Assembly (NCBI GenBank): GCA_009869945.1
Contig: WIXG01000298.1
Location: 33,358-97,357 of the forward strand
From: Mesaphorura yosii
Lineage: Eukaryota; Arthropoda; Collembola; Poduromorpha; Tullbergiidae
Length of the DNA stretch: 64,000 bases
Direction of reading: 5' to 3'
Shown here: piece after piece, positions 38,726-56,325 of the stretch
Layout: every line of letters begins with the position of its first letter
How positions within the stretch are numbered: position 1 is the first letter of the stretch
Notes under the pieces: generated by a model
What the model saw: only the letters and a program-made list of their open reading frames with translations
What the model was told of the DNA's origin: nothing
Database searches by the model: none
Program-made: the position numbers and the translations under genes

Positions 38726-39645
38726 TCATCTTCCGTATCCCGTCGATGGAGGTGCGCCGTATCCTGGGTTTGGTGCTGCGTAGCCCGTCGATGCTGGAAC
38801 GGCCGGGGCAGAGTAACCTGTTGACGCTGGAGCTGGGGCAGCGTAGCCCGTGGAAGCCGGGGCGGCGTAGCCCGTCGATGCTGGCGCTGCGTAACCCGTC
38901 GACACTGCAGCGTAGCTTTGGGATGGTGCGGGTGCCGAGTGAACACCGCCGCCTGAGTAACCGCCACCGGAGTAGCCGCCCGTCGGTGCTCCATAACTTG
39001 TTGGTGGTGGACCGTAGCCTTTGCTTGGCGGCCCGTAACCTGTCTGCGGTGGGCCATAATTTGTCTCTGGTGGACCATAACTTGGTTGTGGTGGGCCGTA
39101 GCCTTTGCTTGGTGGTCCGTAGCCTTTGCTTGGCGGTCCGTAACTTGTACTGGCTTTGTAACCGCCGCCACCCCCATAACCGCCTCCTTTTCCACCGCCT
39201 CCCTTTCCACCACCGCCTTTTCCTCCTCCGCCTTTTCCTCCACCGCCTAAGAGTCCCTTCATGATGCCTTTGAGGCCGCCACCCAAACCTTTGCCTCCAC
39301 CACCTTTTCCTGTGTGCCCAATAGCAATTGGTAAGTATTTGATTTCACCAAACGCAGGCAAGCAACGGCTTTGGAATGATAGTTGGCTGCTTACCTCCTC
39401 CGCATCCGCCGCCTCCATATCCTCCACTCGGCGGTCCGTACGCTCCTCGTCCACCTCCTTTGCCACCGCCGCCTCCACCAAATGTGGCGTCACAAAGGTA
39501 AACTGCGGCGAGACTGAGGCAGAAGAATAAGGCCTGGAAAATGAAGAAAAATCAGTTGATTTCTTGAACTCACACATGACACTCGGACTCTGGACAGAAA
39601 AATTGATAATCCAATACATCGACATCGACGTACCAGTTTTGCCAT
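38726..39645 (-). CDS. Secreted Gly-rich, YGPP/STGYAAP-repeat structural (cuticle-like) protein
   Basis: Exons 39645-39634, 39533-39395 and 39309-38726, 244 aa. Exons 1-2 make a signal peptide ([20 protein letters not shown]) followed by [20 protein letters not shown]. Exon 3 has [12 protein letters not shown] blocks, six or more YGPPSKG-type repeats, then STGYAAPA repeats, ending in PPSTGYGR. The composition matches arthropod cuticle, silk-like or adhesive proteins whose Tyr residues may be cross-linked. Long open frames on both strands over exon 3 are shadows of the repetitive coding sequence. A perfect TATA box lies upstream at 39899-39907, suggesting strong regulated expression. Confidence 0.85.
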
Positions 39646-46593: not shown

Positions 46594-48135
46594 TGCGGAA
46601 TTCTAAATCTGGAATCTTGGCACTGAAGCAGCGTTTTGAAATGTTAAAACGTAAAATTCATCACTTGCAAAGCCGGCACAGCGCTTGAACTAGAAACAGG
46701 AATCGAATCGAATCGAAGTTTTTCTACTTGATTGAGGTCAAGAATGAAGTTTGTGATTAACGAGCGACAAGATGAAGAAGGAGAAGAAGAAGGAGTTCAG
46801 GCGAAGGAGACGGAGCCTGGACGTGGAATCGAATGGAATTGCAGTGCAATTCAGTTCAATCTTCAGTTGTTTGCGTCATGCATTCTCCTCATGTACGTAA
46901 GATTTTATCTTGCAATGGTTCGTCGCAGAAGCAGTCAGCAGCGTAGCAGTAGCAGCTGATAACGATAATCTTGTCCTCGTTATTGTCTTGTGTCCAGGGC
47001 CTTGTGCGCTTGCTGCATTGCTCGCAAGCGGATTAGGAGTCTGGCGAGGAGTGAATTGCTGACAGACTGACAAGACTACTGCTGCTGCTTGTAATCTTAA
47101 TCCTTTCTTCATCGACGGGCAGTTGGACTCGGTTACCAAATTGAAGTTACTGCAACAGGAGTCGTGAGCCCAAAAAGGATTAACGTGGAAGGAATTATCA
47201 GAGTACCAAAAGACAGATTTTCTGATTTACAAATTTCACAGTGAATCATCAGCAAAGCAAGAAGAACTCATGGCTCCAATCTCTTAGACATTCTAAACTT
47301 GAGCACAAGTACAAAGTGAGAACGTAGAATGTCATGGCTAATAAAGCCTTACTTCACATGGAACCCACAATCAATCCAATTTATGAGCAGCTTCCCACAA
47401 GTTAGTGAAGTCAGCCACTGAGGCGACCTTCTACTTGCCACGGACTTCGACGGGCGATGCATAGGTCAAGGCTCGGGTAAAACGTAAGGGCAGACGGTAA
47501 AAACGGTACAATTTTGCAGACAATTCTCGCCCGCACATGGATTAACTGCGTTTTTCTAATGCAAGATCAGAGAGGATTCAAAAGGTCGTGGGTCTGAATC
47601 GGTGAAACTGAACAGGCAAGCAAGATCATAACAAAGCTAGAGTTATTGACCTTAAGACGTAAACTTCTCTTCCTCGAGAAAAATGAAAGACGCGATAAGA
47701 AGAGGGCACGGAAAGAACTGCATGATCATCCTTCAACCATACGCCCATAACTTCCGTAATAATTGCCTGTACTACAGTAAATCGCAGACCAAATCAGCTG
47801 AACTGAAATATCAAATATAATTATGGATCTGTGTAGTGTAAGGCCGAGCAGAAAGTGAAAATGTGACAAATTCACACTGCGCTGTTGTGGTGCAGCTGCA
47901 GCTCTATAATTATGACCTGGTCAATTCCCTCACACATTAAATTACGCATTCGTCACTCAATTCATGTTCATGGCCTTTTTGGCCTTGGTTATCAATTAAG
48001 ATCATCTCTTACTTGCCATGGCCATGGCTTCACTTGGCTTGGGTTGACTGCTGACTCTTTTTACTCCATTCACTCTGGCATGAGTCAAGTACGGTCATCT
48101 TCTCTATCGACAGTGGCCCACGCTTTCAGCCCGAA
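46594..48135. other. Divergent intergenic region, CorA / Diedel-LRAT gene
   Basis: 1.5 kb without recognisable coding sequence; contains the promoters of both flanking genes. No clear core promoter element seen. Confidence 0.4.
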
Positions 48136-49235
48136 ATGTGCTTAAAACACCGAAGACGTCGACGGTGGAAGAAGAATTCAGTCGCCACTGTCACCGCTGC
48201 TTCGCTGCTGCTCGTCCTTTGTGCTAGCTCTTTTTTGATAAACGTCGGTGCAGAATGCTGTTACCCGAAGCAGCTCTCCAGCTCGCGCCCAAAATGTGGG
48301 GACGGTTCTACGCTGCGAGGGCGCTACTACTGCGGACAAGGCGACTGCAACTTCTTCGGCTGCAACTGCGTCGGCGGGTGCCGAAGCTCGGAGAGCCTCC
48401 GCTTCAAGGCCGGGGACATCATCGGTTGTGAGATGGTGGGCCTGCTCATGGGTGTGCACACTATCTTAACGTTCGGGACGCGCACGTTGTTCCACACGAT
48501 GCTGGCTGTCAGCGACCACGACGTGATTCACGTCAGCGTCGACCTCGTCGAGGGGACGCAGATCAAGCGGGAGTCCTTCTTCAAGGCGAAGAACGACAAA
48601 ATGCACTGCCACGTCGAGACTGAATTCTTCGACGAACAGGCAGCTTACTACTGGGACATCAGACCGTTCGCGGAGGACGTCGTCGTCGCACGAGCCGAGG
48701 CATACGAGGAGTTCAATCACGGGAGACCGCTGCGGTACGACGCGATCGAGAAGAACTGCGAGCATTGGGTCACGTTCTGGCGGTACGGAATCGGATTCAA
48801 TCTGCAGCTCCATCCTGGCCAGCCGACGCTGAACGGAGTGCTCCGCTACTTTGGACTCCGCCCGAAACTGGAGAGGACAGACAACTTTGAAGGCCACCAC
48901 CGAATCAGTTGGAATGGGACGCTGACGAGAGGCGGCAACGGCGACGGATGGAGCACCGCCCACGCTCAGAGGAGCGGTGGAAAGGCACGCAACTTTTATG
49001 GTAAGTTTATTGACTGCACACACGTACCCATGCATGCACGCACACTTTAATTTGCTCGTACATGCTTAACTGGTATGTATTTTGCATTTTGTAATTCGCA
49101 GTTGGTCCACTCTTCGTCAAGCCAAAGTACTCTGGAATCTGTTGGCGGAATTCAGACTGCTACTCGAAACGCTGTGATCGGACTGACGTATTTGGGCATG
49201 AGTTTGGGTATTGCGAGGTCATAAAATTTGCGTGA
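48136..49235 (+). CDS. Secreted protein: Diedel-like Cys domain fused to LRAT domain
   Basis: Exons 48136-49000 and 49102-49235 (phase 1), 332 aa. A basic N-terminus and hydrophobic stretch (VTAASLLLVLCASSFLINVG) form a signal peptide ending before ECC at 40-42. Residues 41-82 (ECCYPKQL...KCGDGS, then YYCGQGDCNFFGCNCVGGCR) match the Cys layout of Diedel, an insect immune-modulating cytokine also captured by insect viruses. Residues 87-215 form an LRAT fold: FKAGDIIGCEM, TLFHTMLAVSDHDVIHVS with His120 and His132, and AIEKNCEHWVTFWRYGIG with Cys208. A third Cys-rich tail follows in exon 2 (SGICWRNSDCYSKRCDRT...YCEV). The catalytic set appears complete, so an extracellular acyltransferase or lipase is possible. 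The domain pairing is new to me. Confidence 0.8.
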
Positions 49236-51479: not shown

Positions 51480-52294
51480 AATTATTGCACTTCTGCGTGA
51501 AGGCAAAGCGGATAATGCCGACAACGTCTGCTAAGTTATCTAATCTCTTAACAAGGTAGAACGGTTCGGCAACGGCAATTAATTTACCACATTGCACGTG
51601 CTGGACTTCGCAACTTCAACTTGAATCGGGGCATTTGGAAAAACCGATTCGCAAGTCTTCAAAAGCATAACAGCATGTACTCATTTATTTCATTTCAGCA
51701 TCACTGATTTAAAAGACATATACAACCGATATCAATAGTACGAATTTACGAATACGAATATAAAATATGAAATGAATACCGACTTTTTATAAATGATGCG
51801 CGATGGCGACCTCGCAAAATGACAAGACAAGCAGCCACACTTTAGCCTACAATGTACCTACTTATAATGGGTTTATAAGCACTTTTTTCTTTGGTTTTCC
51901 TTTGTTACAAAATGACTTGACTATAGCTGAAAAGTTACAATTTCTTAGCACAAATTGTTACAAATGCGAACCCGAAACTCGACCTTCGTGAACATGAACA
52001 GTTTGATCTTAACCAACGTCCATCAAACGCCTCGCCCCACCCGTCCGCCTACCAACGCAATCCTGCTTCAGATTTCAGAATTTAGAAAAATTGATTTCTT
52101 AAAACTTGAAATGCATTCTGAACTTTCTGAATGCTTGAAACTAGAAACAACTCGCTCTCGCTTGGTTTTACTAAAATCTATCTTATCGTCTTCAGTCAAT
52201 AGCTCAGTTGGAACAGAACCACCACCGATCGTCGAACCCAAAGTTCCTTGTGCAATGCCCATTTACAGGGCGTGCACATTTTCGAAACAACGCT
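51480..52294. other. Noncoding stretch before the repeat array
   Basis: No gene recognised. Weak open frames on both strands at 51955-52296 show no domain. An A-box-like AGCTCAGTTGG at 52201-52211 is not part of a foldable tRNA. Confidence 0.4.
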
Positions 52295-52579
52295 AATCAG
52301 CTTATCTCATCGTTGAGGCTACTCATCCCTAACCCAAGTCCCAGCTCCTTAAATTATTAGCAATCAGCTTATCTCATCGTTGAGGCTACTCATCCTTATT
52401 TCAAGTATTACATCTTGAAGCTTGACAAAATCTAAACTACATGAATACGCACACGTTTTGACAATCAGCTTATCTCATCGTTGAGGCTACTCATCTCCAC
52501 TCCAAGTACAGCAAGCAATATGCTAATATCTACAAATTGATAATACAATCAGCTTATCTCATCGTTGAGGCTACTCATC
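52295..52579 (+). repeat. Direct repeat array, family R (4 copies of 33 bp)
   Basis: Identical 33-bp copies at 52295-52327, 52362-52394, 52463-52495 and 52547-52579. Each starts AATCAGCTTATCTC and ends GAGGCTACTCATC; three of the four are preceded by CA. Spacers of 34, 68 and 51 bp are unlike one another except for a weak CAAGT word shortly after the first three copies. The copies fall in different reading frames, so the repeat is not a protein repeat. No hairpin pairing partner was found in the spacers. Confidence 0.9.
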
Positions 52580-52610
52580 CTCACTACTAATACTTTAAAT
52601 ACTTAATTAG

Positions 52611-52972
52611 AAAATTGAACTTGTGTGTGTATTGGGATTCATCGAACCTCTCTTCGAACGCTGTCTTAATTACTAAGAACTGAAAATTGAACTTGTGTGT
52701 GTATTGGGATTCATCCAACTACCTTACGAGTAGAGTAGACTATTGAAAATTGAACTTGTGTGTTTATTGGGATTCATCAAACTTACGTTTCGAATTTTTT
52801 TAATTCTAAAAATTGAACTTGTGTGTTTATTGGGATTCATCGAACTTACTTTTCGAATTTTTTAATTCTAGAAAATTGAACTTGTGTGTTTATTGGGATT
52901 CATCGCATAACTTGACGAATGTCTCTAACCTAGAAATCCTAATATCTTGAACTTGTTTTCATTGGGATTCAT
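52611..52972 (+). repeat. Direct repeat array, family S (5 copies of 33 bp plus one decayed)
   Basis: Copies at 52611-52643, 52683-52715, 52746-52778, 52809-52841 and 52872-52904, and a decayed one at about 52941-52972. Each starts AAAATTGAACTTGTGTG and ends TATTGGGATTCATC; the first two have GTGTGTGTATT and the next three GTGTGTTTATT. Spacers are 39, 30, 30, 30 and 36 bp; the third and fourth are similar (TTCGAATTTTTT...AATTCTA), the others not. The unit length (33 bp) and the terminal TCATC equal those of family R, 31 bp to the left. Confidence 0.9.
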
Positions 52973-53504
52973 TTTGTGCTCTTCAGATGTCTGAAGAATC
53001 TACCGAAAATGGAATTGATTATTTTTCAGGTTTGTACTGTTTCGATAAATCCAACTTTACAATCAGATATGAAAGCCAGATTCTAGTTTACTTTCACACT
53101 GCGTGGGTGCACACTGAATCTACATAATACGTAAATAATAAGGTGAGAAAAATTAAGTGTAGAGTTGGGGCTCCAAAATTTACTATTTGGAGTGGGCGAC
53201 GAATTCGAAATGGTGCATTCCAACTGGCTGGCTCAAGAACAGACGCATAGATAGAAGTTAGACATGAATCAACTGTTCGAATGCTCAGAAACAATTTGAT
53301 CTTGATCCTTCTGGGATAATTTCTGCTTCTACTTCTGGGTCTTTATAGACTTTAACTTAACTTGCTCCCTGAGGCGAAACTCTGTACTTTGAACCGAATT
53401 GCGCGGCAGGCGGGTGGCAAAATCGGTATCAACTTTACAATAAATTAGGAAACAAGTTTAAATAACTGTAGCTGCTACGAATAACGAATGACTGTTAAAT
53501 TCAA
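52973..53504. other. Intergenic between repeat array and F-box gene
   Basis: No gene recognised; the right end should hold the F-box gene 3' UTR. Confidence 0.4.
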
Positions 53505-56325
53505 TTACTCCAAGAAATTTATGTCGTTCTCACCATCCGTCGAGCTGTCGTCACCCTCATCGTCGTAGAAGTTGCCTAGTCCATATACTAGCTCTTGTTG
53601 CATCAAATCCCCAAGTGCATTGCCCGGTTGATTGGCGTTATGATCGTGGAAGTCGTCAAGCTGCATGTCGAAAAGACGGTCAAGCTCTGCAGCTGGCAGT
53701 ACTGGTTGTGCTGCGGCTCCTCCTGCCAAAATTTCGGCGGCAACTTGAGCGGCGAGAGGATCATGGACAGGATTTTGATGTAAGCGGTGGCGGTGCTCCC
53801 GCATAATCCTAAACGCGACACGCCGGCGGTGCACGTCTGGTGGTACGTCTTGTCGTGCCCGACGTCTGGAGGTCGCGTCGAATTGGGCATGCTTCGATTG
53901 TAACTTGACTCGTTCAATGTGTTCTAGGTCTTCAACGATGTCACCATTGACGTACACTTTGAGATTTGGAATGCGTTCTCGAGCGAAGAATTTCCCGGCC
54001 TCGGTTACAAGGGGACAATTGACCACATTCAGGACTTTTAGTGACAAAATCATCTGATCTGCGATTGATTCAATGGCAGCGTCATGCAGCTGAAAGAGAA
54101 CAACAGAACACAAAAATTAGCTTGCAAACTCCAGCATTTTACATTTCTATTACTCAGCCAAATATTTTAAGGTTAATTACCTTATCCGATTTCAGATGGA
54201 GATATTCTACTTTGCCGCACTTAACAATGCCAAATAGCACCGAAAGATGAGACATCGATTGTGATTCCAGACGCAGATGAGTCAAATCTGTTAACGATAA
54301 ATGTACATTGAAATTATTTTCAGTATGCAACAACGCATTCAGTGCAAAACTAAGCATTAGAATAAAAATTAATATCCTACTTACTTGTCAAATTACCAAT
54401 GAACAAATCCCTTCGAAATTTATCCGGATTCACAAATAGGTACGTCATTGTCTCTGCCAAATCGTTACAAACTTCCAGTGAGACTCCAGAAATACCGCAG
54501 TCGGTGAAATCCCCATCCGTGCAGGCCAGATCAGTCAGGAATGGCAGATCGGTGTAAATAACGCGCAGGCAATCGTCGTTGACGCCCGGAATGTGAAGGA
54601 CGCGAAGTCTTGGGAATGCTCGGGTGATTCTCGACACAACTTCGCTGTCTTTAATCGGATGATCTCGACCTTGAATCTTGAGAGAAGTCAAGTTATGTTC
54701 GTGCTTGATCTTAATTGGGAAGATTGTAGGAAACGGCATGTCGACGCAGGTCAGTGTCTCCAGTGTTGTCAAATTCTCTAAAAAGTCCAATGGCCATCGA
54801 TAGCGACTGAGTCTCAGGTGTTTCAGCTTCCTCATGTCGTGTCCCGGGATTCGAATCATACGAGTATATGGATACTCGGCCGGAAGAGATAAACTCAAGT
54901 TCTGGAGATTTGGACCAACCGTTTGGAAGAGCTGCCTTGCCGCTGGAACTTCGACTGTTTTCCCAAAGTGAATGTTCATCTCACACAAATTAGAGAATGA
55001 CTGCTCGTTGAAACCTTCGAGGACCGGCTGTGTAACGTGCAGGGGAAAGTTTAGCTTGACTAAATTCTTGACCTTTTCTCGCGGTACTTGCACCAGCGCT
55101 CGAAGAATTCCAAGTGAGACAGTGCAATCACACCAATTATCGAGGAAGGAGCAAGAGATAGTTTGTAAATTAGGCAAACTTGAGAGAAGACGCACAAATG
55201 AGCCTCGAATTGCAGCTTCGTCGTCTCGAGGTGGAATGGGAGGAGCGTTTGCATCTTCCTCGGGGTTCCCGCCACCATTTCCGTTGCCAGCATCACCCTC
55301 GTGAACGGGCCCCCACACACCTTGACCGTCACCACCAGGAACAATCGGAACAACTGGAGGAGGCATGCCTTCTCGAGCCACGAAGCTTTGGGTGCCCACC
55401 GTCAAATGCTTAATTGTTGGAAAGCTGTACTCTCTCATCTGGATTGGTGGCTGTATCTTGGATGGCGGTCTGCGCACAGGTATTGGCACGTAGCGAAGCC
55501 ACAGCCTTTCTAGATTCGGCAGGTAATTCTCCAGGGCCCAATATAATTCTTTTTCTGTGACAGGATGCGATTGTTGTAGTATCAACGTTTGGATGTGGGT
55601 TCCGTGCGCCGAGAAGAAACGTTGCAGTATGGCGTTCGTTTCACAGAATTCCACTTTGTACATCTGAAACGTTAAATGGATCGGCCTTGAAACCAAACCA
55701 CCTTCTGCTGGAGTTGGATAGTACTTCAAGTAAGACGTGATTCCGGAATTGTCGGTGAATGTTATGGTTTTGATCTTTTGAATAATGCGGCAAGCTTCTT
55801 CGTTCCACTGATGACAAACTGCACGGCATTTCATAACTTCGGGCAGAGGAAGGTGCCTCAGAATGTCTTGAATGATCTACGAACACAAGAAAGAGATTAG
55901 ATTCAGATTTGTCTAATTTGCATGTATCATCGTTGTTAAGTATTAGTATTCAAATATGTAAAACTCACATTAGGGACCAACAAAGGATGTGGATGAGAGC
56001 TTGAACTACCAAAGCGTTCCATTTGTTCTTCATTCTCAGCCTCCCCCATTACGACTAGCATTCCAGCAGGCTCCTCTTCATTTTCCTCGTTTCCTTCTTG
56101 TCCTTCTAACTCAATGTCATTGACTTCGTCGGATGGTGACGGTGCTTGCCCTTCTTCAATGCGTTCATCTTCCATGTTATTTTCCAGGTCCAAGGACACA
56201 CTGAAGTTGTCTATGCTATCATCGGCAATGCTTTGAATGCTTTCAGGTGACGATGACGAATTCCCGGACGTATTCAGCGCAAACACATTCATCAAGTTGA
56301 ATTCTCCGTCCCCAGGTGGCTCCAT
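53505..56325 (-). CDS. F-box and leucine-rich-repeat protein
   Basis: Exons 56325-55969, 55876-54385, 54287-54181 and 54089-53505; 846 aa. The first exon is Ser/Glu-rich and acidic (QEGNEENEEEPAGML). The F-box spans the first join: HPLLVPN|IIQDILRHLPLPE then VMKCRAVCHQWNEEACRIIQ. Irregular leucine-rich repeats follow (LPNLERLWLRYVPIPV, LPNLQTISCSFLDNWCDCTV, LKHLRLSRYRWPLDFLENLT, FPRLRVLHIPGVNDDCLRVI, LTHLRLESQSMSHLSVLFG, LKVLNVVNCPLVTEAGKFFA). The C-terminus is Arg/His-rich then acidic (DDEGDDSSTDGEND). Such proteins recruit substrates to SCF ubiquitin ligases through SKP1; the target is unknown. A CAG acceptor just before the ATG and a GTAAGT donor near 56627 suggest a 5' UTR intron. Confidence 0.85.

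Follow-up and report, generated by a model that had tools for sequence, protein, structure and literature searches.

What kind of element is an array of nine short direct repeats of two unrelated families, set in an animal genome between two minus-strand genes? The question arose from a locus in the window, that is, the whole 64 000-nucleotide stretch of Mesaphorura yosii DNA that was analysed. Nine intact 33-mers, all on one strand, lie from 52295 to 52904. Family A consists of four copies of AATCAGCTTATCTCATCGTTGAGGCTACTCATC (+ strand, 4/4 perfect) starting at 52295, 52362, 52463 and 52547. Family B consists of five copies of AAAATTGAACTTGTGTGT[T/G]TATTGGGATTCATC, starting at 52611, 52683, 52746, 52809 and 52872; three of these are identical and two have G at the single variable site. 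A worn sixth B copy retains ATGAATCCCAAT and AAGTTCAA, with the interval between them 2 bases shorter. The spacers among intact units are 34, 68, 51, 31, 39, 30, 30 and 30 bp, and ∼41 bp separates the last intact B unit from the worn copy. Units B2–B5 are spaced at 63 bp, and the B part has a TRF score of 318, the top of the 9 TRF rows for the window. An earlier sequence-only reading, in which A and B were called families R and S, had described four perfect copies of one 33-mer and five near-perfect copies plus one decayed copy of a second, of equal length and on the same strand, with a common + strand ending TCATC and spacers of 30–68 bp; the observation is confirmed. The features are as follows.

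52295..52327, minus strand: unit A1, with a tiny ORF at 52326-52297 (MSSLNDEIS, stop)
52362..52394, minus strand: unit A2, with a tiny ORF at 52393-52364 (MSSLNDEIS, stop)
52463..52495, minus strand: unit A3, with a tiny ORF at 52494-52465 (MSSLNDEIS, stop)
52547..52579, minus strand: unit A4, with a tiny ORF at 52578-52549 (MSSLNDEIS, stop)
52580..52595, minus strand: example of the 16-nt flank on the minus-strand 5′ side, partly kept (identity A 0.52, B 0.46)
52611..52643, minus strand: unit B1, with a tiny ORF at 52642-52607 (MNPNTHTSSIF, stop)
52683..52715, minus strand: unit B2, with a tiny ORF at 52714-52673 (MNPNTHTSSIFSS, stop; 13 aa)
52746..52778, minus strand: unit B3, with a tiny ORF at 52777-52724 (MNPNKHTSSIFNSLLYS, stop; 17 aa)
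52809..52841, minus strand: unit B4, with an ORF at 52840-52724 (38 aa), without its own stop and in frame into B3
52872..52904, minus strand: unit B5, with a tiny ORF at 52903-52868 (MNPNKHTSSIF, stop)
52947..52972, minus strand: worn sixth B copy, with an ORF at 52972-52925 (MNPNENKFKILGFLG, stop)

The array occupies a ∼2-kb gap between two neighbour genes, both on the minus strand. One, F-box-like and with relatives in metagenomes, has its last ORF ending at 53505 and gave two F-box matches just under the Pfam cut-offs; the other is represented by minus-strand ORFs at ∼50.4–51.4 kb, one of which was tested against Pfam and had no match. On the 3′ side of the array is a 64-aa minus-strand ORF at 52262-52068, for which a single relative turned up, at 98% identity, encoded by an ENA contig 1080 nt long. 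Since its codon score resembles that of non-coding ORFs, this match was read as no more than an indication that sequence from this species, or from one close to it, has been deposited; a 110-aa ORF at 51964-52293 (+) had no relative in the same collection. Further off in the window, one ORF at 48055-49050 (+) has Pfam matches to LRAT (E 1.9e-8) and also to Diedel (E 1.7e-7), a combination that strikes us as unusual, and several short tandem repeats (periods 15–42) at 38831-39248 lie within a long minus-strand ORF stretch that is GYGPP- and G-rich and resembles a cuticle or structural protein.

The nine intact repeats have kept their letters while the intervening DNA has drifted. Mean pairwise identity, taken column by column, is 1.00 inside the A units and 0.98 inside the B units, drops to 0.3–0.6 at the first base outside the unit on either side, and ranges over 0.21–0.52 across four flank bins for each family, eight in all, where composition alone predicts 0.27. 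These sharp edges bear out the earlier claim that units are kept while spacers change. Read on the minus strand, the 16 bases 5′ of the units are partly kept (identity 0.52 for A and 0.46 for B), and the ten bases on the opposite, 3′ side are hardly kept (0.27 and 0.35). The same reading had called the spacers unlike, which is right for most flanks, as they are near random, but not for all: the 30 nt following B3 and B4 on the + strand are 73% common (other B pairs, 27–40%), and CAAGT (ACTTG on the minus strand) is found 7 bases past three of the four A units (A1–A3; changed in A4). Because of this residual shared descent, the units look like the products of an old tandem duplication in which a constrained 33-base core was held and the remainder drifted.

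The genome that was searched comprises 93.0 Mb in 1127 contigs, and its repeat counts are lower bounds. Full A and B units, allowing up to 3 mismatches, were found nowhere in it but in the array. Unit halves searched likewise gave one further A match, on contig C11 (2 mismatches in 22), and the backwards control for that search had a single match of its own at up to 3 mismatches. The C11 match (C11:425120) has 26 of 29 bases in common with A and, with one gap, extends into the 5′ flank. Its alignment scores 52 against A2 and 51 against A3, compared with 23 for the best of 3142 background windows; the number of such scores expected genome-wide is 4e-5 to 7e-5 by extrapolation, and blastn, run with its search space set, gave E 3.8e-5. 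Judged by these alignments it is a diverged single copy of A, and it stays significant even though it was the best of several searches. It retains the unit and the 5′ flank only, and no second copy was found in the 3 kb around it. It lies ∼0.9 kb before an ORF, which we take to encode the splicing factor SF3B5.

Other candidate copies did not hold up. A match on C180 to the 3′ half of B (3 mismatches) was dropped because the likeness misses the first half of B and about one such score is expected by extrapolation. At the peptide level, an A-like pattern with 1 mismatch had one further place in the genome (C35) and a B-like pattern with 3 mismatches had two (C50 and C313; one match in the backwards control), and none of these three loci matched the array region by BLAST at E 0.01. 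The exact unit patterns had no match in the IMG/VR and GTDB contigs scanned. A search of titles and abstracts found no array of this kind described, which weakly suggests that the array is new to the literature.

Inspection of the minus strand gave a feature that the sequence-only reading had missed. Every intact unit (9/9) starts G-ATG there, so that the GATGA shared by the two families contains an ATG opening a tiny frame at the second base of each. In A this frame runs from ATG to TGA over nine codons (MSSLNDEIS, 30 nt) and fits wholly within the 33-base unit. In B it reads MNPN[K/T]HTSSIF, the sole change within the B units being the K/T amino-acid change; the stop is immediate in B1 and B5, comes after 13 aa in B2 and 17 aa in B3, and B4 continues into B3. 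The ATG is retained in the worn B copy, where AAGTTCAA persists past a frameshift, and in the C11 copy, whose first nine codons have one amino-acid change and two synonymous changes and whose frame, without A's stop, continues to 15 aa.

Frames of this kind are uncommon by chance, given odds that were computed after the pattern had been noticed: among 10258 overlapping 33-mers from assumed non-coding stretches, 35 (0.34%) are filled by an ORF as A is, on either strand, and 5.8% have ATG within the first three bases of one strand. Set beside 73 short ORFs of DNA assumed to be non-coding, A has a codon score above 89% of them, the C11 copy above 100% and B above only 29%, so that codon use is coding-like in A and the C11 copy but not in B; the measure is a weak one, resting on very few codons and placing both F-box ORFs just below zero. 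A hexamer coding score was discarded because its control, part of a CorA ORF, came out non-coding. The spacers contain 3 ATGs per strand, with no strand-specific depletion; the deficit on the minus strand (3 versus 8.4 in shuffles, P 0.02) was set aside since the plus strand likewise has 3. A through-read repeat protein from A on the minus strand was excluded, since all three unit frames contain stops.

If the peptides were what is held, synonymous changes should be tolerated, yet the array copies show none in A and none in B. In simulations with peptide-only constraint and distances taken from the 16-nt flank, the probability that the four A copies stay identical was 0.0028 and that of no synonymous change in B was 0.0012, on the assumption that the flanks diverged by substitution alone (a substitution clock); smaller assumed distances gave 0.05–0.43 for A and 0.02 for B. 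The same genome provides a control in a tal/pri/mlpt-like gene on contig C222 (region C222:12000-16000), which has two 13-aa tiny ORFs, MASGPILDPTGLY and MDPPEKLDPTGLY, at C222:13462 and 13607, with a TATA-like word ∼130 bp before the first. Both contain LDPTGLY, and the LDPTGXY motif, with the pattern used, occurs genome-wide on C222 only; LDPTGLY is given as a motif of arthropod tal genes in two published accounts (PMC6428570, PMC6124123), and its presence marks the genome as that of an arthropod. The 24 nt common to the two ORFs (stop included) differ at five bases, all of them synonymous. Set against these five, the absence of synonymous change in the array implies that the nucleotides themselves matter or that copying acts on the units. 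Thus peptide constraint alone is insufficient, and nucleotide-level constraint or inter-unit copying must be assumed. The control also establishes that a layout with two tiny ORFs exists in the lineage.

Our tentative preference is for a minus-strand transcript carrying tiny ORFs, followed closely by a small-RNA locus and then by a DNA-binding array. The array would be the body of one such transcript with about ten tiny frames of two kinds, those of family B (MNPN[K/T]HTSSIF) coming first and those of family A (MSSLNDEIS) after them. It would work in the manner of tal/pri/mlpt, with one RNA encoding a very short peptide several times over, each time from a separate ATG, the peptides themselves being unrelated to those of tal; an extra nucleotide-level constraint, or copying between units, would be added to the constraint on the peptide. 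Both minus-strand transcription and translation of the frames are inferred. This reading explains why both families have an ATG at one place and why A's frame fits its unit. It is 5′ of the ATG that the flank is partly kept, and the diverged C11 copy keeps both the ATG and the 5′ flank. Against tiny ORFs are the lack of synonymous change in the array, its contrast with the genome's own tal gene, the drifting B stops, the K/T replacement as the one change inside B, the absent stop in the C11 copy, the low codon score of B, the persistence of AAGTTCAA past the frameshift in the worn copy and the lack of strand-specific ATG depletion in the spacers.

The tal genes (tarsal-less, polished rice, mille-pattes) resemble the array in having several ORFs of ∼10–13 codons on one strand with unlike spacers, and in having one kind of repeat followed by another kind. 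For Clogmia tal, repeated peptides of 11, 10, 11 and 29 aa followed by a different C-terminal peptide are reported, with spacers of 111–334 nt (PMC6124123), longer than the 30–68 bp of the array. Unlike tal, the array peptides are without the LDPTGXY motif, and the C-terminal tal motif GREETSSCRRRR is absent from the ORFs listed for 51600-53550. The tal units of the same genome diverge synonymously, whereas the array units are identical at synonymous sites.

A guide-RNA locus would account for the exactness of the array units, together with their sharp edges and equal length. In this second explanation, which we regard as possible though somewhat unlikely, a tapiR-like tandem-repeat locus would give a transcript that is cut so that each unit yields a ∼30-nt guide RNA, two guides in all, and selection would hold the guide base for base and leave the spacers free to go. 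Each base of the unit is kept and the edges are sharp on both sides, two unrelated families have equal length, and a precursor fold is unnecessary. There is a precedent in the tapiR locus, a satellite locus described as conserved in culicine mosquitoes that yields a pair of tandem-repeat-associated piRNAs, 30 and 29 nt long (PMC9962485, PMC9781653). The likeness lies in a tandem-repeat locus with two small RNAs of 29–30 nt, set beside two families with 33-nt kept cores; the array differs in that its two cores sit in separate sub-arrays. However, guide RNAs do not predict that the ATG has the same position in A and B, the units exceed the tapiRs by 3–4 nt, and no unit begins with U on either strand. 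Nor was a near-complementary target found elsewhere in the genome (≤3 mismatches over 22–24 nt) save the C11 and C180 matches, although tapiR targeting is described as requiring only limited pairing (PMC9962485).

Constraint at the nucleotide level would also be expected if the array were a homotypic series of DNA-binding sites, serving a neighbouring gene as enhancer, silencer or insulator and bound by one protein, or by two, recognising long sequences (a multi-zinc-finger protein, for example). The array is intergenic, in the ∼2-kb gap between two minus-strand genes, and the single extra copy on C11, with its flank, is likewise placed ∼0.9 kb before another gene. What makes us consider this unlikely is that invariance at 33/33 positions across the four A copies is strict by the standards of binding sites, that all units share one orientation, and that familiar motif cores sit where the sequences vary. 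AGATAAG in A, which we take to be GATA-like, reads AGATCAG in the C11 copy, and ATAAACA in B, presumably forkhead-like, reads ATACACA in B1 and B2.

A further explanation is an ordinary functionless minisatellite, in which gene conversion or slippage would keep recent tandem copies alike. The regular 63-bp spacing of B2–B5, the right flank largely shared by B3 and B4, and the limitation of the array to one locus fit this explanation. If units were copied from one another, however, there is no reason to expect every copy in both unrelated families to share the same two end points, with identity falling from 1.0 inside to 0.3–0.6 at the first outside base and most flanks near random, nor does such copying predict that the C11 copy retains the unit and the 5′ flank only. 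We rate a minisatellite as improbable. More doubtful still is a double-use locus of a new kind, whose two types of 33-nt module would be kept base for base. Its account of the module, as a tiny peptide frame and at once an exact-sequence RNA (guide or target), and its layout of two sub-arrays on one transcript with a single outlying genomic copy, are held with the same strong reserve.

The remaining candidates were rejected. As regards a dispersed satellite or transposon, the genome has the array copies and one diverged A copy (lower-bound counts), so the genome-wide search of both 33-mers that had earlier been called for places them in neither. For non-coding RNA, Rfam at the gathering threshold gave no hits in the whole 64-kb window, a relaxed search of 51600-53550 gave two weak hits, both off the array, and ARAGORN gave no tRNAs. 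The folding z of the whole array was +1.84 on the minus strand, which folds worse than 19 of 20 shuffles, and −0.35 on the plus strand; 14 array pieces folded with z from −1.35 to 1.28, none of them notable. A miRNA cluster was rejected, as there is no stable hairpin per unit in the 14 pieces and no Rfam match on the array. The likeness to box C/D snoRNAs that had been suggested was not borne out, since B is without CTGA (the lack of a D box in this family had been seen correctly), merely 6 nt separate the second C-like word from CTGA in A, and Rfam gives no support.

The CRISPR-like plan that had also been proposed fails on the residual homology of the flanks and the weak folding of the units. 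Like the present locus, a CRISPR array has direct repeats that are short and almost identical, set apart by spacers of comparable length, but here the spacers share residual descent, the units hardly fold and the genome is that of an animal; Pfam run on 10 ORFs found no cas gene among them. The splicing-enhancer repeats of dsx and fru, present in several copies, are alike as a short element with unlike spacers, and differ in that the element is ∼13 nt, against units of 33 bases. What stands of the sequence-only interpretation is that the units are kept, that the spacers change and that the repeats are not dispersed; the CRISPR-like plan and the box C/D likeness do not.

Should the tiny frames of the favoured minus-strand transcript be translated, the array would stand beside tal as a second arthropod gene for repeated tiny peptides, without being related to it in sequence. 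If instead each unit acts as a guide RNA, the array would represent, in another animal, a locus that works as tapiR does in culicine mosquitoes.
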